Part shown: piece by piece, positions 16,277 to 31,887 of the stretch | Position numbering within the stretch: position 1 is the first letter of the stretch | Layout of the letters: each line of letters starts with the position of its first letter | Assembly: GCF_008329945.1 (NCBI RefSeq) | Contig: NZ_CP035807.1 | Location: 1,054,001-1,118,000 of the forward strand | DNA from: Thiospirochaeta perfilievii | GTDB taxonomy: Bacteria; Spirochaetota; Spirochaetia; DSM-2461 | Reading direction: 5' to 3' | DNA: 64,000 bases | The notes under the pieces: model-generated | What the model was told of the DNA's origin: nothing | What the model saw: only the letters and a program-made list of their open reading frames with translations | Database searches by the model: none | Program-made: the position numbers and the translations under genes

Positions 16277-16819
16277 ATGAATTTACCTAAAGGAATAGAG
16301 AGTATTTTAATAGATAAAGAGACTATAGAATCTAAAGTTACAGAATTAGCAAATATAATTGATAATAATTATAAGGATATTGAGACTCCCCTAGTTGTCA
16401 TTGGACTATTAAAAGGTTCATTCATTTTTATGTCAGACCTAGTAAAACAGATGCAGACACCTCTGCAAGTTGATTTTATGATAGCATCAAGCTATGGAGA
16501 CTCAATGGAAAATACTGAGGTATCAATAATTAAAGATATTGAAACACACATTTCTGGAAGACATGTACTAATTGTAGAAGATATAATTGATACTGGAATA
16601 ACATTAACAAAAATTGAAAATATACTATCTAATAGAAATCCTAAGTCAATGAAAATATGTACACTACTTAATAAACCTTCTAGAAGAACAAGTGAAGTTA
16701 ATATAGATTTTAATGGTTTTGATATTGATGACCACTTTGTAGGAGGAATGGGCCTAGACTATGCCCAGAAATATAGAAATCTTCCTTACATTGGGGTGGT
16801 AAAAAACGAAAAATTGTAA
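16277..16819 (+). CDS. hpt: Hypoxanthine phosphoribosyltransferase
   Basis: This purine salvage enzyme joins hypoxanthine or guanine to PRPP. The 180-residue type I phosphoribosyltransferase fold is seen from VVIGLLKGSFIFMSDL at the N-terminus, the PRPP loop VLIVEDIIDTGITL, and the C-terminal FVGGMGLDYAQKYRNLPYIG. Length is typical. AAGGAGG precedes the ATG. It marks the left edge of the accessory island. Confidence 0.96.
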   Translation: MNLPKGIESILIDKETIESKVTELANIIDNNYKDIETPLVVIGLLKGSFIFMSDLVKQMQTPLQVDFMIASSYGDSMENTEVSIIKDIETHISGRHVLIVEDIIDTGITLTKIENILSNRNPKSMKICTLLNKPSRRTSEVNIDFNGFDIDDHFVGGMGLDYAQKYRNLPYIGVVKNEKL

Positions 16820-17087: not shown

Positions 17088-18229
17088 ATGAGATACAGAG
17101 ATCCATTCAAAGTATTTCCCAAAAAACTAAAATCAGGAAAAGTAGTCTATTATTATACGACTTATGACATGTTTAATAGGAGAAAACAGTTTAGTACAGG
17201 CTGTACAAAAAAATCTGATGCAAAGAGATTCTGCATTAACTTATTGGTTACTGATTCTCTAACAGGTTCCCCTACCCTCACTTTCAAACAATACACCAAG
17301 AAATGGTACGTTTATGGAGAGTGTAAATATATTGAATCGATACTTAATAGAGGACGAACCTATTCAAGGAGTAACTCAGAACTTTTTAGAGCTAAACTAG
17401 TAAATAAAATGTGGCCTTATTTTGGAAATATCTTAATGACTGATGTAAAACCATTACATTTAGAAGAATGGATAATTATTTTAAAGAAGGAAGGTTTAAC
17501 TAACGTAACTATTAATACTTATCTATCTGCTATCAAAACTATTTTCAATGAAGCCTATAGGCTTGGAGATATCACAAAAAACCCAGTGACTCATATAAAA
17601 AGACTTGCTACAGACTCTAAAAACAAAGGAACACTAACTACTAGTGAAGTAGAAAAATTACTAGATCCAATTAATAAAGGAATGATTTGGAATAAAGATA
17701 TTTACTACATTTTCACACTTCTAGCTTCACAGACTGGTATGAGAATTGGAGAACTATTAGCATTAACAAAAAAGATATTAAAAGAGATCACATCATAGTA
17801 TCACATTCATGGGATCGGAAATATGGTTTAAAAGAAACTAAAACTGGAAAATCAAGAATAGTACCGATATCACAAGAATTATATTCTATCTTATTGGAGT
17901 ACTCCTCAAGAAGTATTCATAACTATATATTCTCAAAAACAACACAGGATAAACCAATAGCAAACTACTCAATTAGGAAAGAGTTTTATAAAGCCTTAGA
18001 AAATATCAAGATATCAAAAAATGAGCGTGAAGAAAGGTCTATAGACTTCCATTCTTGGCGTAGATACTATAATACAAGGTTAGTAGTCAAAGGTTACCCA
18101 ACAGCCATTATACAAGCTATTTTAGGCCATTCTAAGGATAGTAATATGACTGAACACTATACGAAATTAACGATAAAAGACTTATCTATAGTAATAGAAA
18201 AGAATAAAAATTATAGGAATGTGTTGTAG
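17088..18229 (+). pseudogene. Tyrosine recombinase / integrase, one frameshift
   Basis: Two frames, 17088-17798 and 17894-18229, join into one product of about 380 residues if one A is added to the A6 run at 17768-17773. The reading then continues as LTKKDIKRDHIIVSHSWDRK. All catalytic elements of a phage-type tyrosine recombinase are present: Arg in TGMRIGELLAL, His-x-x-Arg in FHSWRRYYN, LGHS, and the nucleophile Tyr in TEHYTK. There is a core-binding domain at about 75-185 and an N-terminal AP2-like basic region. It is not an integron integrase, since no extra patch domain is visible. It lies at the left border of the accessory island and probably mobilised it. Confidence 0.85.
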
Positions 18230-19544: not shown

Positions 19545-19875
19545 ATGAGTAATAATACTACAGACATAAAATTTAAAAAAGATCCAGGAACATGGTCTTT
19601 GATGGAAAAAATACTACGGGATGGTGCAAGAAAAATGCTTCAACAAGCTCTTGAAAATGAAGTGGCTGAATTTTTAGAAAAACATAGTAACTCAAGAGAT
19701 GAAAATGGTCTGAAGTCCGTAGTAAGAAATGGCTATAATCCAGTGAGAGATATAGTAACTGGGATTGGTAAATTTGAAGTCAAAACACCTAGAATTGACG
19801 ATCGAAAACTACCTGAAACCGAAGACCGGTTTACAAGTGCTATATTGCCCAAATATCTAAGAAAAATACCCAGGG
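19545..19875 (+). mobile_element. IS256-family element, left part only
   Basis: The first 110 codons of the ORF at 19545 encode the N-terminal part of a mutator-type (IS256) transposase: ENEVAEFLEKHSN, VVRNGYNPVRDI, GKFEVKTPRID and SAILPKYLRK. The DDE catalytic domain that should follow is absent, and the sequence passes directly into unrelated coding sequence. Only the left end of the element survives. Its outer boundary upstream of 19545 is not defined. Confidence 0.7.
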
Positions 19876-20321
19876 GAAGTAGTAATTTTTGTGAATTAGA
19901 AAGTTTCCATTTATTTAAAGCGGAATTAGAAATTATAAAAGATAGAGAACACAGGTTTACTCCATTTAAAAATACTTGGTATTACTCTTGTAGAAATAAG
20001 GATGGTTTTCCTTGTGCTGTACTAGATGATTTTAACTTAAATAATAAATTTGATTTAGCATTAGATATTAGACATTATGTTAACCGTAGTGAACCTTGGG
20101 AGTTAAGATTACTCTCTAGAAGTAATGATATAAAAGATCTTCCAGAAATACTAAAAAAACAATTGAAAGAATATCATAGATTTAATTTTGTAACAGAAAC
20201 ACCAGAGTATGCAGGTAGTTCAGGTTATATAAAAACATTAGAAAGAGATATAATGCATCCAGAAATAATTGCTACTATAAAATCTCTTTGTAACACTCTG
20301 GTTGAGGTACAAAATGTTTAA
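19545..20321 (+). CDS. Chimeric ORF: IS256 transposase N-terminus fused to an unrecognised C-terminal region
   Basis: The 258-residue frame joins about 110 residues of IS256 transposase to 148 residues of other origin. The second part (starting near GSSNFCELESFHLFKAE and containing FKNTWYYSCRNKDGFPC and DLALDIRHYV) is not recognised. It may be the 3' end of a gene cut by the insertion element, possibly an upstream member of the defence locus that follows. A strong AAGGAG precedes the ATG, so the fusion could be made, but it should not be active as a transposase. It is separated from the Abi gene by a promoter-hairpin unit. Confidence 0.6.
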   Translation: MSNNTTDIKFKKDPGTWSLMEKILRDGARKMLQQALENEVAEFLEKHSNSRDENGLKSVVRNGYNPVRDIVTGIGKFEVKTPRIDDRKLPETEDRFTSAILPKYLRKIPRGSSNFCELESFHLFKAELEIIKDREHRFTPFKNTWYYSCRNKDGFPCAVLDDFNLNNKFDLALDIRHYVNRSEPWELRLLSRSNDIKDLPEILKKQLKEYHRFNFVTETPEYAGSSGYIKTLERDIMHPEIIATIKSLCNTLVEVQNV

Positions 20322-20453: not shown

Positions 20454-21398
20454 ATGAATAAAATATATGATAAACCTTACAAATCTGCAAAGCAATTAGT
20501 TGACTTCTTATTGGATTATAAACTAAATATTAGCAATCATGAGAGTGCAGAAAGTTTTCTATCAAAAATAAATTACCATAGGTTTAAGATATATTTAAAA
20601 CCATTATGGGATAAAAATAATAACTGTTATAACTCTGATTATACTTTTGAAGATGCAATAGAGCTATATAGATTCGATGATGAGTTGAGGGATTTATTAT
20701 TTACTATTATTGGAAGAATAGAGATAAAATTAAGAACGCGTTTAGATCATACAATATCTAATTATACCAATGATCCTTTCTGGTATTTAAATGATAAATG
20801 GTTTAATAAGAATTCGGCCTATCGTTTTAGATCAAAATTAAATTCTAACTTCTTACAATCCCAAGATAGTGACAGTTTACATTTTAAGAATAACTACATA
20901 AATGATAAGAATGCCAATTATAAAAATCTACCTCCATTTTGGGCTATTATAGAACTATCAACTTTTGGAACTATGATGGATATATTTAAAGCTCTGAATA
21001 AGGATGAATTTAAATTTAGTGGAAAAGAGAATGCCTTAGATACCCTATCTAAAGAGTTTGGAGCAAATAATTTAAAAGTGCTAAATTCTTGGATCGTTTC
21101 AATACGAGATATTAGAAATAAATGTGCTCATCACGCAAGATTATGGAATAGTAATTTAAGAGAACCGAGCAGTATAAAAAAACTTTTATCAAAACCTCCT
21201 GCCCATCCAAATAGAATTTATCTATTTTTTATTGTTGTAGAAATTTTATGTAATAATTTAGATATTGATATCAATATAAAAGAAGAACTTACAAAACTAT
21301 TTGGCAAATATCCAGCTGTTAATTATTTCAAAGATTCTATGGGAGTACCAGATAATTGGTCGGATGATATATTTTGGGAAAGAGGTGCTGTAAAATGA
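20454..21398 (+). CDS. Abi_2 (AbiD/AbiF-like) family abortive-infection protein
   Basis: The 314-residue product matches the Abi_2 family from its start (KPYKSAKQLVDFLLDY, INYHRFKIYLKPLW, ELYRFDDELRDLLFTIIGRIEIKLR) to its end. Members are linked to abortive phage infection. The segment IRDIRNKCAHHARLWN carries an R-N-x-x-x-H arrangement of HEPN ribonucleases, so RNA cleavage is the likely activity. The ATG follows an AAGG site. Its stop overlaps the pglZ ATG by four bases (ATGA), placing it in one operon with the BREX-type genes. The frame is intact. Confidence 0.85.
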   Translation: MNKIYDKPYKSAKQLVDFLLDYKLNISNHESAESFLSKINYHRFKIYLKPLWDKNNNCYNSDYTFEDAIELYRFDDELRDLLFTIIGRIEIKLRTRLDHTISNYTNDPFWYLNDKWFNKNSAYRFRSKLNSNFLQSQDSDSLHFKNNYINDKNANYKNLPPFWAIIELSTFGTMMDIFKALNKDEFKFSGKENALDTLSKEFGANNLKVLNSWIVSIRDIRNKCAHHARLWNSNLREPSSIKKLLSKPPAHPNRIYLFFIVVEILCNNLDIDINIKEELTKLFGKYPAVNYFKDSMGVPDNWSDDIFWERGAVK

Positions 21399-23922
21399 AT
21401 AAATTCCAAGAACCATTAGAGAAATTATTTGATAAACATCGAATAATATTCTGGTGTGATGAAGAAGTTGAATTGTTAGAAGAGTTTAACTCTGTTGATA
21501 TATTAGGTGTTGAGAAGATAGTTGTTTCAAATAATGAGTTTAGTGTTAAATATAAGATAAGTAGGGAATTTTCTGATAAGAAGTTTTTACTCTACTTTGA
21601 GGGTAAAGAACCGGACTATTTAGATGACTGGTTACTTGATATTAAACTTGCTAATTATACATTCCATACAACACCTGAAGCAATTGTACTACAGGAGCTG
21701 GGACTTGATTATCGGTTTAGAGATTTTATTAAGGCCCATAAAGAGTTCTTTAAGAGTAAAAGTAGAACAGAGAAGTTTAAAAAGTTATTGATAACCGATG
21801 TCGTTACTGAAGATGAACTTAGAATGACTATATTAAAAGCTGTTATTACAAGTGAGGCTATTAGTATTGAGGATCTTATTCTAAAACTATTATCTATAAC
21901 TACAGATAAACAAGAGAAGATATTTAAGGATCTAAATAAGTTTAATATTTCAAATTATTTCTGGTTAGTTATTAAAAAGAGTATAATTATCAATCAGATT
22001 CTCCATCACTATATGAACTCGCTATTGAGTTATTTAAAGCTGTTACAAGTTTTATTAATGGAGACTCTCTTATTTCCGTAGGAAGTAACTCTGCATCAAA
22101 TGCCCTATGATCTAGGATAAAACATATGATTTCCAATTGGAAACATGACACAAAGACATTTGTAGAATACTCTAGAAGGGTTCAAGAAGATCTTCATATT
22201 AAAAAGACACTAAACAGTGGTGTTGATATAAATGAACTTGCATCCGAAGATCAATATGATGAGATTGAAAAATATATAATTACTCAACTAATTGAAAAAA
22301 TAAACAGTAATCTAATCTCTTTAAATGACGTAGAGGTTATAATAAAACAGAGAGAGCAGTCTTTCTTCTATGAAGCATCTTTACCATTTTATGAAACCAT
22401 ACTTAATGGAGCTAAACTACAATGGGAGATAGAGTCCCTTAAAGATAAAATTAGTATTGATGATCTTGAATCTTGGGGAGATGAGTATAGTAAGCGACTA
22501 TATAAAGTAGATCTTCATTATAGAAACTTTATACACTCGTATAAACAGACTCAACAAAATCCAGTACTACAGAATCTATTTGATAAGTACCATAATTTGT
22601 ATAGTAATGATTGGTTATTACCACTAAACGATAACTGGCAAAAAACAGTAGACAGAACAGATACATGGAACACTACCCCCGGGAAGAGACAAAGAGACTT
22701 CTATTATTACAATGTAAAACCATTGATTGATAAAGGACAAAAGGCAGTAGTTATTATTTCTGATGCTTTAAGATATGAGATTGGAGTTGATCTAAACGAT
22801 AACTTAAATGCGGAGATGGTATACGAAAGCAAGATAGATCATCTATACAGTGAGCTACCTTCCTATACCCAATTAGGTATGGCATCACTACTACCTAATA
22901 GTGAATTAGAGATTAAAAATGACTGTAATGTATTAATAGACGGAATGAACTCAGATGGGACACCAAATAGATCAAAGATATTAACTAAGAATAGTGGAGT
23001 TCAATCACTAGCTATATCCTATAAAGAGTTTATGAAACTAAATTCTGGAAAAGAAGGACGTGAATTACTAAAAGAGAATAAGTTAGTCTATATCTATCAC
23101 AATAAGATTGATAAAACAGGTGATGATAAAGCAACAGAAGAAGATGTTTTTGATGCTGTTAACCATAGTATTACAGAGTTAAAAGAGCTATTAAAAAGAT
23201 TGTATAACATGAATTCATATAACTACTTTATAACTTCAGATCATGGATTCATCTATCAGGCTAAAGAGTTGGAAGAAAGTGATTTTATAGAGAGTAGTAC
23301 TACTGGGGATATTTGGAAACAAAACAGAAGATTTTTCATAGGTAAAAACTTGGAAAATCACTCATCATATAAAGAGTTTACTGCAAATGAACTTGGGCAA
23401 AATGGAGACTACACCTGTATGTTCCCAAAATCTATAAATAGAGTCCGTGTAAAAGGAGCAGGTAGTAAATTTGTTCATGGAGGAACTTCCCTTCAAGAAG
23501 TTATTATCCCAGTTTTAAGAATTAATAGAAAAAGAGAAGCTATAAGATCATTAGTAGATATTGATATTATTAAAGGTAAAGAGGAGATCAGTTCATCTAT
23601 TAAACCAATAAGTTTTATACAGAGTAAACCTATTGGTGATAAACTACTTCCAAGAAGAATAAAAGCTGCATTCTACAACCATGATAAAACTGTTATTATT
23701 TCTGAAGAGTTTGAGTATACTTTCGATTCAACTGATAGTCTAGAAAGACAGAGAGAGAAAAAGTTTACTTATCACCTTTCTAATAGAGCAACTGATGAGT
23801 TTAATAACCAGAAAGTAGTACTTGTTTTACAAGAAGCTATAGATGGTACTTCAGGCTGGAAAGAGTATAGTACATATGATTTTAGAATGAGTATGTCATC
23901 AACAATGGATTTTGATTTTTAG
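21395..23922 (+). pseudogene. pglZ: BREX phage-defence protein PglZ (alkaline-phosphatase superfamily), two lesions
   Basis: Translation from ATG 21395 runs to a stop at 22079, and the rest is open from 22126 to 23922. Adding one A to the A5 run at 21974-21978 restores IKKEYNYQ and keeps the frame to a TGA at 22108-22110. The same frame then continues SRIKHMISNWKHD without interruption. The repaired product would be about 842 residues, the normal size of type A PglZ. Metal-site motifs VVIISDALRYEIG and FITSDHGFIY are intact. PglZ is the signature component of BREX systems and acts with BrxC and PglX, which are absent here. Nine bases separate it from brxL. Confidence 0.85.
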
Positions 23923-23930
23923 AGGTATAA

Positions 23931-25958
23931 ATGAAAGACTTAGATATAAAATTAAACAAACACTTTTTAGGTAAAGTAGTACGAAAAGATCTCACAAAAT
24001 TAGTCAAGGGTAACGCAATTGTTCCAGCTTATGTTCTTGAATATCTACTTGGTCAATACTGTGCTACAGATGACAATGCTACAATTAATGAAGGTGTTGA
24101 GAGTGTTAAAAATATAATATCCAGTCATTTTGTTCATAGAGAAGAATCAGAACAGATAAAGTCAAAAATTAGAGAGAATGGTAAACACAGAATCATAGAT
24201 AAAGTCTCAGTTTCATTAAACGATAAACGAGATATCTATGAAGCTACATTTATTAATCTAGGTTTAAAAAAGATAGAAATCTCAGCAGATTTAGTAACAA
24301 AACATCCTAAACTCTTATCTAACGGTATTTGGTGCATTATAAACATGGAATACTTTGCTATAGAAGATGGGGAAACCGCTCCTTGGCATATAGGATCTTT
24401 AAAACCTATACAAATATCAAATGTATCCGTTGATGAATATAAAGAAGCTAGAGCTCAATTTTCAACGGAAGAGTGGATAGATCTTCTACTACAGTCTATG
24501 GGATTACAACCAGAAGAGTTTACTAGAAGATCAAAACTGATTCAGTTAAGCCGGTTAGTTCCATATGCAGAGAATAACTATAACTTAATAGAGCTTGGCC
24601 CAAAAGGAACAGGTAAATCACATATTTATTCAGAGCTATCACCACATGGAATACTTATATCCGGTGGAGAAGTTACAAAAGCAAAACTATTTGTTGATAA
24701 TAAAAGTGGAACAATAGGGCTTGTTGGTTACTGGGATGTTGTTGCATACGATGAGTTTGCAGGAACAGGTAAAAGTGTAGACCGGGGTCTTGTAGATATA
24801 ATGAAAAACTACATGGCTAATAAATCATTTTCCAGGGGTACAGAAGTTTTTGGAGCTTCAGCATCAATGGTTTTTGTAGGAAATACTGATCACAGTGTAG
24901 CTTACATGTAAAAACACTCACATCTTTTTGATGCACTTCCCTCTCAATACGCCGACACAGCATTTTTAGACCGTATCCATTGTTATGTTCCAGGCTGGGA
25001 AGTACAAAAACTTAGAAATGAGATGTTTACAAACAACTATGGTTTTATTGTGGACTACCTCTCTGAAATTATGAAGCAATTACGAAGAGAAGATTATACT
25101 CAGGACTTTAAAAAGTACTTTGTTTTATCTGATAGTATTACCACAAGAGACAAAGATTCCATAACTAAAACATTCTCTGGTCTTATTAAAGTTATGTACC
25201 CAGATGGAGAATACTCAGAAATTGAAGCTAAAGAGATTATGGACTTTGCAATAGAGAATCGTAAACGTGTTAAGATACAGCTTATTAAAATGGATGAAAC
25301 ATTTGAACATGTAGACTTTAGTTATACATCCAAGGCTACTGGAGAGACTTACACAGTTAATACTTTAGAATCTATTGAATACGGCTTTAATGAGGATCTA
25401 CAGGTTAAACATATGCATAGTGAAGATCCAGTATCTGATTCTGTTAATATAAGTTCTGAAACAACTCCTGTCAGACAGGTTATATTAAAAGAAGGTAATA
25501 CTGAAATTAGGGATAACCAAGAAGGAATTAGTTATGAGAACCTATTTGGGGATTACTTTGTTGGTGCTAAAGAGATTCTAATAGTAGATCCTTTTATTAG
25601 GATGCCTCATCAATTTAGAAACCTTATGGAGTTAATCAAGGTAATACTAACAAAGAAAGAGATTGGTGAAGAGATAACAATTCATGTTGTAACTGGAGTA
25701 GATGAGGATTACAGATATGAGTCGGATTCTCATTTTACCGAAATTGGAGAATCTATATCTCCGTTAGGTGTATATTTCTCCTATGAGATAAATAATGGAA
25801 TACATGATAGATCAATTGAAATTGATGATAAGTGGAAGATCCTATTAGGTCGTGGTTTAGATATGTTTCAGAAACCTCTTGGTAGATATGATATTGCTGA
25901 AATTTATCCTGAGATTCGGAAATGTAGAGAGTGTAATATTACATATATAAAAAAATAG
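23931..25958 (+). pseudogene. brxL: BrxL-type AAA+ ATPase with a MIT_C-like C-terminal domain, one in-frame stop
   Basis: The open frames 23931-24911 and 25023-25958 are in the same register, split only by TAA at 24909-24911 (probably TTA for Leu in VAYM-L-KHSHLFDALP). The 675-residue product has the BrxL N-terminal region and Walker A LGPKGTGKSH with GYWDVVAYDEFAG as Walker B region. MVFVGNTD and DTAFLDRIHCYVPGWE then follow. After IENRKRVKIQLIKM the usual Lon-like domain is missing. Instead residues from about 530 resemble the MIT C-terminal domain of MITD1: HVVTGVDEDY, IHDRSIEIDDKW, LLGRGLDMFQKP and a final CNITYI strand. BrxL is the DNA-binding ATPase of type I BREX. The stop suggests a decayed gene. 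Confidence 0.82.
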
Positions 25959-26074
25959 ACCTAATTTTAAATTAGTAAAAATAGCTTTGCCACAGAATCA
26001 TCGATAGTGATATTATTAGTTTAATAGGAGTTAATATTTGAAATCAGACGAGACCCGTAGGGTATTTCTGTTGT

Positions 26075-26184: not shown

Positions 26185-26427
26185 TTAAGCTCTATGTAGT
26201 ACTTTTTCTTTATCAAGTCTTTCAGATATCCATATTTTAATTATTGATTGTCGAGGAACACCTAGTCTTTTTGCTTCTTGATCTAATGAGTTTATCATCC
26301 AAGAAGGAAAATCTACATTAACTCTTTTTATATCATAATTTGGTTTTTCAACTTTTGATAAATCAAATTGATCTAAGATATCTTCTTCCCCTGCATCAAA
26401 TTTTTTATCCAATTCTGAAGCTTTCAT
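26185..26427 (-). CDS. brnA: BrnA-type antitoxin
   Basis: The 80-residue product has the BrnA layout: an N-terminal segment with DEEDILDQFDLSK-like acidity and a C-terminal ribbon-helix-helix-like part (VNVDFPSWMINSLDQEAKR, VPRQSIIKIWISERL). BrnA binds and neutralises BrnT and represses the shared promoter. It overlaps the 3' end of brnT by 23 bases, the usual toxin-first order of this pair. It lies at the low end of the cassette-like array. Confidence 0.9.
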   Translation of the reverse strand: MKASELDKKFDAGEEDILDQFDLSKVEKPNYDIKRVNVDFPSWMINSLDQEAKRLGVPRQSIIKIWISERLDKEKVLHRA

Positions 26428-26677
26428 ATAAATCCTCCTCGTTTTTTCTAGACCTTCTAACAGATATTATTCTTACATTTAATTCTCTATAAGTAATAAT
26501 AGCAGTCCAACATTTTCTATTTAATTTTGCTATGATTAAAAATCTTTCTTCTTCCAGGTTTTTTGATGGAAGTTTAATTAAATTTTCATCTTTCCATAAT
26601 TCTTGTGCTTCTAAGAAATCAATTCCATGTTTAATAAAGTTAGAATTACTTTTAATATTATCATATTCAAAATTCAT
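26405..26677 (-). CDS. brnT: BrnT-type ribonuclease toxin
   Basis: The 90-residue product shows the BrnT pattern: FEYDNIKSNSNFIKHGIDF at the start (the W-D-x-x-K-x-x-x-N-x-x-K-H-G-I-D-F motif in slightly altered form), ERFLIIAKLNRKCW and a final RIISVRRSRKNE. BrnT is a type II RNase toxin of the RelE fold that blocks translation. An inverted repeat immediately upstream is a likely autoregulation site. The gene is intact. Confidence 0.9.
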   Translation of the reverse strand: MNFEYDNIKSNSNFIKHGIDFLEAQELWKDENLIKLPSKNLEEERFLIIAKLNRKCWTAIITYRELNVRIISVRRSRKNEEDLYESFRIG

Positions 26678-27656: not shown

Positions 27657-27938
27657 TTATGATGCTGTTAATGTTGTATTAAAATCTAGATTTAGTCCTA
27701 ATGCATTACATACTTTTAAAAAAGTCATCATATTACAACTATTACCATTTTCAAGTTTAGATAATTGTTGTTGTGTAACATGAGCCTTTTTAGATACTTC
27801 AAGCTGACTTAAACCAGAAAGCTCTCTAGCTTCATGTATTTTTAATGCCAGTTCAATGAATTTTTTTTCTTCATCAAAAGATTCTTTAAAATCACTATTT
27901 TCTAAAGATGTATTTAGATGGTTTCTAAATGTTTTCAT
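27657..27938 (-). CDS. higA: HigA-type antitoxin, XRE-family DNA-binding protein
   Basis: The 93-residue product has a helix-turn-helix of the XRE class in its C-terminal half: ARELSGLSQLEVSKKAHVTQQQLSKLENG with the recognition helix at QQQLSKLE. It should neutralise the upstream HigB toxin and repress the operon. It overlaps higB by 14 bases. The stop lies just upstream of the attC at 27493, making higBA an integron cassette. Confidence 0.88.
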   Translation of the reverse strand: MKTFRNHLNTSLENSDFKESFDEEKKFIELALKIHEARELSGLSQLEVSKKAHVTQQQLSKLENGNSCNMMTFLKVCNALGLNLDFNTTLTAS

Positions 27939-28311
27939 TGTATTCCTTCCTTAATTTTTCTTCATTATATTTACTGAGGAAATCGTCTCTATACATTTTT
28001 GCTTTAGCAATTTCCTTTTTAGGTACTTTATTGGTTTTCTTGTTGAAACAATTTGTCAAAATGATAAAATCTTTAAAGCAAAAGAAATAAAGTATTCGAA
28101 CCTGTTTACCTGTAAGCTTTATTCTCAATTCATGAATCCCATCATCTAATATATCAGCATAGGGTCGTGGTAAAAGAGGACCTTTCTCTTCTAATATTGA
28201 AAGCCAACTTAATAATTTTGCTTTATTACTATTTTTTTGAGATTCAACAAAATCAAAAACTTCCGATTCTTGATTTTGTTCATAATAAATAATATTCCAT
28301 TTGTTTATCAT
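27925..28311 (-). CDS. higB: HigB/RelE-family toxin (phage Gp49-like)
   Basis: The 128-residue product has the RelE/HigB fold pattern: WNIIYYEQNQESEVFDFVES, ILEEKGPLLPRPYADIL, IHELRIKLTGKQVRILYFF and ILTNCFNKKTNKVPKKEI. The conserved Arg in ELRIK and the K-rich tail are typical of ribosome-dependent mRNA interferases. It is the first gene of the pair, and a strong inverted repeat precedes it. Confidence 0.88.
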   Translation of the reverse strand: MINKWNIIYYEQNQESEVFDFVESQKNSNKAKLLSWLSILEEKGPLLPRPYADILDDGIHELRIKLTGKQVRILYFFCFKDFIILTNCFNKKTNKVPKKEIAKAKMYRDDFLSKYNEEKLRKEYNENI

Positions 28312-30096: not shown

Positions 30097-31887
30097 TTAT
30101 TTTTTCTTAGTCCAAGCTTTTGTTTCTGACTGTGCATCTATATCTGTCCTATAAATCTTCTCTATATTAGGTGTTGTATTTTTTTCCAATTCTTCAATAA
30201 AAAAATCATATTTACATCGCCTAAAGTTTAATGCGGAACCTATAGACCAATCAGGATTTTCTTTTAATGTAGTAATGATAGATTGTAATGTGTCAGTATA
30301 ATAAATATATAAATGATGATAAAACTGAGAAATATTAATATCTAATGAACCTTGATGATTAATTTTATTTCTAACTCTATAAATTCTTCTTAATTGCCAA
30401 CTTATATTATTGAAATGTATTGTTAAGTGTTTTTTCATGTTCTTAGATGATTTATACATTCCTTCTTTGAGACTAAATAATCTATTTAATATTAGAGGAT
30501 TATCTGATACACAGGCTTTTATTTTGTTCAGTATTTTACTATCTGTATCAACGAGAAATATTTTATTTAAATCATATGGGTGAAATCTATAATTATTTGA
30601 TTTTTCCAGAAAATTGCTAATTTCTGTATCGCTTTGTATTTTTCTGATGTATGGTTTTAAGTCTTTTGATACTGCAATTAAAGTACTGTATAGATAATTT
30701 AATGTAGTAATTGCTGCAACATTTTTTGTAACATTTCCTATTATAGTACCAGCCTGATCCTGGAAAAGTGATTCTAATGCTATCCATAGATTAGTTAACT
30801 TAGCCTCATCATTACTCGACATTAAAGATAGCCTAAAATATTGTATAGATGCTTCTATATATCTCCTTTCTTCTAATTTAAATAATTCTAGAGATCTAAT
30901 TAAGTTAATATAATTAGAATCAGGATTTTTTGATTTTCTCATGTATAGAGGGATATCATCATTGTGTTTTACTATTTCAAAGTCATCATTTTTGATTAAA
31001 TCTATCGGATGCATTTTCTGATTTTTTATATCTGGTTCATATATAACTCTAAGAGCTAATAAGTTTCTTAAAAGTTGCCTACCTTGAATCGCAGCTGTAA
31101 TTTTATCAAGGCTTTTAACAGTAACTTTAATAACAGAGCAACCCAAGTCTTGATTTAAAAATAATTCTGTAAGTCTATTTTTTGGTAGATCATTTCGATT
31201 TACGCTAATCAACCTATGGCTACTCAAAGTTTCTAATTGAAAACTGGTTCTAAGCAAGTAATAACATTCAAATTCGATTAATTCTTTAGAAAATAATTGT
31301 TTTAATTTAATAAATTTTTCTTCAAATTTTTGTGTTGTTTGCAGTATTTGAAATGAATTTTTAATGTATTCAAAAGAGTAACCTATGTTATGTAGTTCTA
31401 CAGCTAATAATTGCATAGCAGTATTTAGTTCTTTCTTATTATTTTCTTCACTAAATAATATTTCTTCAAGATAGTCAAAATTTTTGTTTAGGTAATCATT
31501 AAGAATTATAATTCCATACTGGGCTAGTTCACTTATCTCAATAAAGTCAGGATTATCTGACTTTTTAATTGATTTATATTGTTTGCTAATCTTATTAGTA
31601 TAAAAAAGTAAGCTACTAAAATATTTATTAATTATATTATCACTTTTTATGGTTATCTCTAATTCTTCGATAAGGTCATTTAAATTTGTGTGGTGCACTT
31701 TTACTTTATTTGAGATAATTGCTGATTCTCTTATTTCATTTAGTAAGTACTTTACATTTGTTGATCGAACTTGCCAAGATTCATAAGTTTTATCATTGAA
31801 TAGTTCTTCCCACCTAATAGTAAAAAATTTATGTTTATCTTTTTCAATGTTCCATTCTTTCCATTTTTCATCAGTAATATTAATCAT
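30097..31887 (-). CDS. Large HEPN-motif protein, putative defence cassette gene
   Basis: The 596-residue product is not assigned to a named family. It lacks signal peptide and membrane segments. The C-terminal third shows the layout of ApeA-like HEPN domains: LTNLWIALESLFQDQ followed, about 140 residues later, by WQLRRIYRVRNKINHQG, which contains the R-N-x-x-x-H ribonuclease motif. The N-terminal half is helical and unique. It ends 10 bp before an attC, so it is probably an integron cassette gene. A role in phage defence is an inference from the HEPN motif and neighbours. No clear ribosome site precedes the ATG. Confidence 0.7.
   Translation of the reverse strand: MINITDEKWKEWNIEKDKHKFFTIRWEELFNDKTYESWQVRSTNVKYLLNEIRESAIISNKVKVHHTNLNDLIEELEITIKSDNIINKYFSSLLFYTNKISKQYKSIKKSDNPDFIEISELAQYGIIILNDYLNKNFDYLEEILFSEENNKKELNTAMQLLAVELHNIGYSFEYIKNSFQILQTTQKFEEKFIKLKQLFSKELIEFECYYLLRTSFQLETLSSHRLISVNRNDLPKNRLTELFLNQDLGCSVIKVTVKSLDKITAAIQGRQLLRNLLALRVIYEPDIKNQKMHPIDLIKNDDFEIVKHNDDIPLYMRKSKNPDSNYINLIRSLELFKLEERRYIEASIQYFRLSLMSSNDEAKLTNLWIALESLFQDQAGTIIGNVTKNVAAITTLNYLYSTLIAVSKDLKPYIRKIQSDTEISNFLEKSNNYRFHPYDLNKIFLVDTDSKILNKIKACVSDNPLILNRLFSLKEGMYKSSKNMKKHLTIHFNNISWQLRRIYRVRNKINHQGSLDINISQFYHHLYIYYTDTLQSIITTLKENPDWSIGSALNFRRCKYDFFIEELEKNTTPNIEKIYRTDIDAQSETKAWTKKK

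Follow-up and report, generated by a model that had tools for sequence, protein, structure and literature searches.

A probable remnant of a type I BREX operon adjoining an AbiD-type HEPN gene in Thiospirochaeta perfilievii

Gene content of the locus

We analysed a stretch of 64000 nucleotides (the window) from Thiospirochaeta perfilievii, whose genome comprises 3.70 Mb in two contigs. At about 20454–25958 of the window, three adjacent genes follow each other on the plus strand: a gene of the Abi_2/AbiD family, a pglZ of type A and a brxL with an MIT_C tail. The original prediction described them as a compact three-gene operon. The families and the order were recovered by matches to Pfam, PADLOC and TIGR02687 profiles; the open frames were not, since pglZ and brxL are broken. 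Two of the three genes are thus pseudogenes, with at least three separate lesions, and abi_2 is the only intact one.

The abi_2 gene (20454–21398, plus strand) encodes a protein of 314 aa that matches both PF07751 (E = 5.4e-43) and the AbiD profile of PADLOC (1.2e-58). The latter match runs nearly end to end, residues 6–304 being aligned with positions 4–273 of a profile of 277. Comparison with five relatives placed the Rx4H motif at residue 221 (RNKCAH). Both features expected of an Abi_2/AbiD HEPN protein, a profile match over the full length and an Rx4-6H motif, are therefore present. The end of the gene overlaps the start of pglZ by the four nucleotides ATGA (21395–21398), as predicted. 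Given three lesions in the 4556 bp of pglZ and brxL, a gene of 945 bp would stay unbroken with a probability of about 0.54, so that nothing on selection follows from the intact state of abi_2. A second Abi_2 gene lies elsewhere in the same genome, near 240.5 kb on contig 1 (L119, 6501–7247, minus strand), and has a frame of 249 aa and 34% identity.

The open frame, the full-length AbiD match and the Rx4H motif would fit a still-working solitary abortive-infection gene of the AbiD type, independent of the dead BREX genes, and the nearest plasmid relatives of Abi_2 that we examined, in 3 out of 463 records, also stand alone. Against this, the AT-rich stretch from 19.4 to 26.3 kb gave 24 promoter-like matches versus 37.8 expected from shuffled sequences, and the matches upstream of abi_2 are thus not above chance. 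If transcribed, abi_2 alone could act today in this manner. We consider this reading, which is compatible with a BREX remnant, plausible but somewhat short of an even chance.

The pglZ pseudogene (21395–23922, plus strand) belongs to the PglZ family (PF08665, E = 7.1e-54), and the type A profile TIGR02687 matches both of its open pieces, which lie in different frames (21395–22081 and 22126–23922). As tblastn query we took the intact PglZ of G020, a genome from the same bacterial family. Residues 4–194 of that protein align at 21401–21979 and residues 194–836 in another frame at 21976–23919, with 37–38% identity. The frame thus changes near 21976–21979, and the second frame contains a TGA at 22108. 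The PglZ of a type I BREX system is consequently not intact here. The frame change sits on a short A run followed by a G, a kind of site at which slippage or errors of assembly can arise. Taken alone, it could be an assembly error; the two premature stops at the locus are not of that kind. Programmed −1 frameshifting as a rescue of pglZ was ruled out, given the TGA in the new frame and the separate stop of brxL.

The brxL pseudogene (23931–25958, plus strand) contains the Pfam domains BrxL_N, BrxL_ATPase and MIT_C. Its two pieces (23931–24911 and 25023–25958) share the same frame and are parted by an in-frame TAA at 24909. Residues 1–686 of the BrxL of G020 align across this stop in a single frame (23931–25952; tblastn, 51% identity). 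As for PglZ, an intact BrxL is therefore lacking. The MIT_C domain after the ATPase resembles a BrxL variant with a C-terminal HKD/PLD-like domain, the region being taken in by the PADLOC profile PDLC02508, and the premature stop is the sole difference from that variant. The HxRx4D motif found here is the same in 49 out of 66 long BrxL proteins, and an excerpt of PMC12839542 describes an HKD DNase at the C-terminus of BrxL in Type-1 BREX. A BrxL with an MIT_C tail is therefore a normal, known form. As the catalytic regions can still be read, the decay of pglZ and brxL looks recent from the sequence.

Surroundings of the locus

On the left, the run of genes that opens with an argF-like gene and closes with the one that we take to be hypoxanthine phosphoribosyltransferase-like (hpt-like; 16277–16819, plus strand) is collinear with a contig (C190) of the same-genus genome G001 over 13.1–16.8 kb, with 60–82% identity. 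The collinearity stops after the hpt-like gene, which marks the left edge of an island. The five window genes that match G001 in this segment are each in one open piece.

Beyond this edge lies a tyrosine recombinase/integrase pseudogene (17088–18229, plus strand), which a frameshift near 17.8 kb divides into two ORFs in different frames, both of integrase families. This gene may once have served the island as its integrase. The search for attachment sites gave nothing beyond weak, chance-like repeats. Directly upstream of abi_2, an ORF at 19545–20321 (plus strand) had been called a truncated IS256. Its first 107 aa or so do resemble a Mutator/IS256 transposase (Transposase_mut, E = 3.4e-5). 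The rest of the ORF did not bear out this description: for its tail (19845–20321), no relative was found in Pfam above the cut-off, among plasmids or in 98 related genomes. The ORF looks like an in-frame fusion to a sequence without relatives, and no second copy of it was found in the genome.

On the other side, brxL is followed by genes on the minus strand for a BrnT toxin with a CopG-type antitoxin (26185–26677) and a Gp49-like protein with an HTH partner (27657–28311). An IS110 transposase is also found downstream. In addition, a gene at 30097–31887 (minus strand) encodes a protein of 596 aa without Pfam match, which matches the ApeA profile of PADLOC weakly and over the full length (E = 3.3e-9). 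Judged by this match, it is possibly a divergent HEPN defence gene. These surroundings are those of a worn integrative defence island.

Missing BREX genes

The absence of brxA, brxB, brxC and pglX from the window had been noted from the open reading frames, and homology searches bore it out. No match to brxA or brxB was found in the window, to which the search for these two genes was restricted. For BrxC, no match was found in the whole genome (96.85% complete), while the same search was positive in 2 of 14 control genomes. For PglX, the genome gave a single generic match of 23 bits, below the cut-off and about 490 kb away. The locus is also the only place in the genome with matches to the PglZ family.

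We then looked for remnants of the front half. With the proteins of G020 and of a second genome of the same family (G010) as queries, no trace of brxA, brxB, brxC or pglX was detected in the window, including the stretch between the integrase and abi_2 and the region after brxL. Between 16.8 and 34 kb, no BREX remnant was found either with 2293 ORFs (≥100 aa) from 80 BREX loci as queries. Only four matches of this search were not wholly inside 21350–26000 (E between 1e-4 and 8e-3), the best one being to the integrase. Thus, BrxC and PglX are lacking at the locus and in the genome, and BrxA and BrxB at the locus. What does persist is the arrangement that is expected of a BREX origin and seen in intact relatives, a type A pglZ with brxL after it on the same strand. 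No junction of the front-half loss could be traced. The loss would reflect either a deletion on the transposase side or a partial arrival of the operon; a deletion caused from the IS256 side, as originally proposed, is possible.

In excerpts of PMC6326788, deletion of brxB, brxC, brxX (pglX) or brxZ (pglZ) from the BREX system of E. coli abolished both defence and methylation, and deletion of brxL abolished defence; PglZ is reported, in a passage of PMC12205998, to be a nuclease that binds BrxB. With the front genes gone and both pglZ and brxL interrupted, no BREX function would be expected at this locus today.

This expectation would not hold for the two remaining core genes if their interruptions were due to recoding or sequencing errors, PglZ and BrxL then being made in full. 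The slippage-prone position of the frame change in pglZ argues for such an explanation. However, the TGA that follows in the new frame and the separate in-frame TAA of brxL imply that slippage alone yields neither protein. The five genes shared with G001, each in one open piece, indicate that errors are not general in the window, and PglX and BrxC would be missing even if PglZ and BrxL were made. We therefore regard this explanation as very improbable.

BREX loci of relatives and the pglX–pglZ interval

The intact operon of G020 has the order brxA-brxB-brxC-two accessory genes-pglX-pglZ-brxL, its genes being named from similarity, gene order and comparison with an annotated Hymenobacter plasmid. 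The PglZ of this plasmid was the best plasmid match, and its annotated BREX set is complete. The locus of T. perfilievii resembles such type I BREX operons by its type A PglZ and its BrxL, in the same order and on the same strand and matching the intact genes of G020. It differs from them by the absence of the front four genes and by its interrupted pglZ and brxL. In G010, the end of pglX is followed by a pglZ in two pieces and then by brxL. This pglZ (L004, 374–2700) lies in two frames of 397 and 354 aa; BREX decay may therefore affect a further genome of this family.

To describe BREX loci more broadly, we scanned genome contigs and used the 80 best PglZ loci out of 532 relatives; PglX and BrxC were called by similarity to the proteins of G020 and of the Hymenobacter plasmid. 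PglX was found upstream of PglZ in 65 of the 80 loci, and in the other 15 the contig ends first: in 14 of these, no more than 1.1 kb lies upstream, and in the last one (L049) accessory ORFs occupy the 5.3 kb up to the contig start. BrxC was found within the flank in 37 loci. BrxL lies downstream of PglZ in 76 loci, the exceptions being L068, L074, L075 and L083. It had been set out beforehand that relatives always carrying the full BREX set upstream would mark the present copy as a deletion remnant, and PglX is found upstream wherever the contig is long enough. Together with the two broken core genes and the lost upstream half, this lends good support to the remnant, one of the two readings originally put forward.

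Among the 65 loci with PglX, 38 contain one or more mechanically called ORFs of ≥100 aa between PglX and PglZ, on the same strand. Across L023–L095, this interval holds many unrelated extra genes, several of them as recurring pairs; judged by eye from their motifs, ATPases and DUF262-, Schlafen- and PLD-like proteins are presumably among them. Plasmid annotations place Shedu and DUF262 proteins directly before pglZ. Furthermore, the preceding frame overlaps pglZ by 4 nucleotides in 21 of the 72 loci with a placeable PglZ start (one of them ambiguous), the other 8 of the 80 loci being left out for lack of the PglZ N-terminus. Since the overlap is common and extra genes are frequent, neither the ATGA overlap nor the presence of an additional gene before pglZ is special.

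Recurrence of the Abi_2–PglZ pairing

We searched for Abi_2 beside PglZ in several samples. An HMM built on four Abi_2 proteins gave no match in any of the 80 PglZ loci; it recognised two distant Abi_2 proteins (31–34% identity) with E values of 2e-38 or better and is therefore not blind. Among the 730 plasmid records matching a joint Abi_2–PglZ query, none covered at least 80% of it. From 395 genomes of the phylum of G343 (the genome of L021, one of the best-matching genomes), 30 had a PglZ, 41 an Abi_2 and 8 both, and in none were the two adjacent on one contig; the scoring was limited to two candidates per genome, so that these counts may miss copies of Abi_2. Our literature searches found neither BREX with AbiD and PglZ together nor incomplete BREX with pglZ and brxL and pseudogenes. 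One paper mentions BREX along with the Abi family, and among the listed papers that cover three or more of BREX, PglZ, BrxL and Abi_2, none includes Abi_2.

Within the same family, Abi_2 matches were found in only 2 of 26 genomes, that of T. perfilievii included. In the other one (G014), Abi_2 (L118, 3025–4011) belongs to a type I restriction operon of the order hsdM-abi_2-hsdS-hsdR, which is a direct example of Abi_2 as restriction-operon cargo. The table of PMC3710099 lists the Abi2/AbiD/AbiF family as embedded in R-M operons. The gene of T. perfilievii shares with this family the full-length profile match and the Rx4H motif, but it adjoins pglZ instead of lying in an R-M operon, a pairing that was not seen in the other BREX loci searched.

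These results bear on the other reading originally put forward, a reduced but working system of three genes that would couple a HEPN RNase to PglZ and BrxL. The single strand, the ATGA overlap of abi_2 and pglZ and the conserved motifs that can still be read in each of the three genes are what such a system would show. With pglZ and brxL interrupted, however, no full-length PglZ or BrxL is possible. The proposed survey for triads recurring without BrxC and PglX came back empty in the 80 loci, the 730 plasmid records and the 395 genomes, and the overlap is common before pglZ whichever gene precedes it. A reduced working system is accordingly the least credible of the explanations considered, and we give it almost no weight.

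Another explanation is that Abi_2 never belonged to a BREX operon and was brought next to pglZ by the deletion of the front half. The solitary position of its nearest plasmid relatives, the lack of any BREX relative with Abi_2 in the slot (0 of 80 loci) and the transposase-like ORF directly upstream are all consistent with this. The exact 4-nucleotide stop/start overlap speaks against it, being usual before pglZ and less expected from the random end of a deletion. We find such a placement unlikely, but it deserves more weight than sequencing errors or a reduced system.

Origin of the locus

We conclude with high confidence that what remains here is the 3′ half, now decayed, of a type I BREX operon in which an AbiD-type HEPN gene would have travelled as cargo. 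The ancestral order would have been brxA-brxB-brxC-pglX-[cargo]-pglZ-brxL, inside the now degraded integrative defence island. Before the decay, the AbiD-type gene would have occupied the cargo slot between pglX and pglZ and would have been translated as part of the operon. It was probably a second-line abortive-infection RNase beside BREX, as has been proposed for HEPN genes in R-M operons. We infer this earlier role from the junction with pglZ, from the slot and from the R-M analogy. As no relative with Abi_2 in the pglX–pglZ slot of a complete BREX was found in the 80 loci, the 730 plasmid records and the 395 genomes, the cargo step is drawn by analogy with the other slot genes and with the operon of G014.

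Effectors inside BREX loci have precedents. According to a passage of PMC12839542, stand-alone HEPN genes act as backup effectors in BREX loci, and auxiliary nucleases are described there as well. BrxU of pEFER, placed between brxC and pglX in an excerpt of PMC8565348, is likewise an additional effector within the operon; its position differs from that of the cargo here, an Abi_2 before pglZ. A more specific role can be imagined, in which the AbiD RNase, coupled translationally to PglZ before the decay, acted as a guard that was silenced by BREX and released when a phage inhibits BREX, in a PrrC-like manner. We hold such a role to be rather doubtful.

Type I BREX and BrxL of the MIT_C form are already known, as is Abi_2 in the role of cargo in restriction operons. 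The pairing of an Abi_2 gene placed before pglZ is unrecorded in the searches made, and it survives here as a relic only. A candidate “minimal BREX” is thereby struck off the list, and the case calls for caution, as profile matches alone can make two pseudogenes pass for an operon. In type I BREX, the interval between pglX and pglZ often serves as a cargo slot and is a good hunting ground for partner effectors. Surveying it could bring new ones to light, and an AbiD found there within an intact operon would be worth testing.
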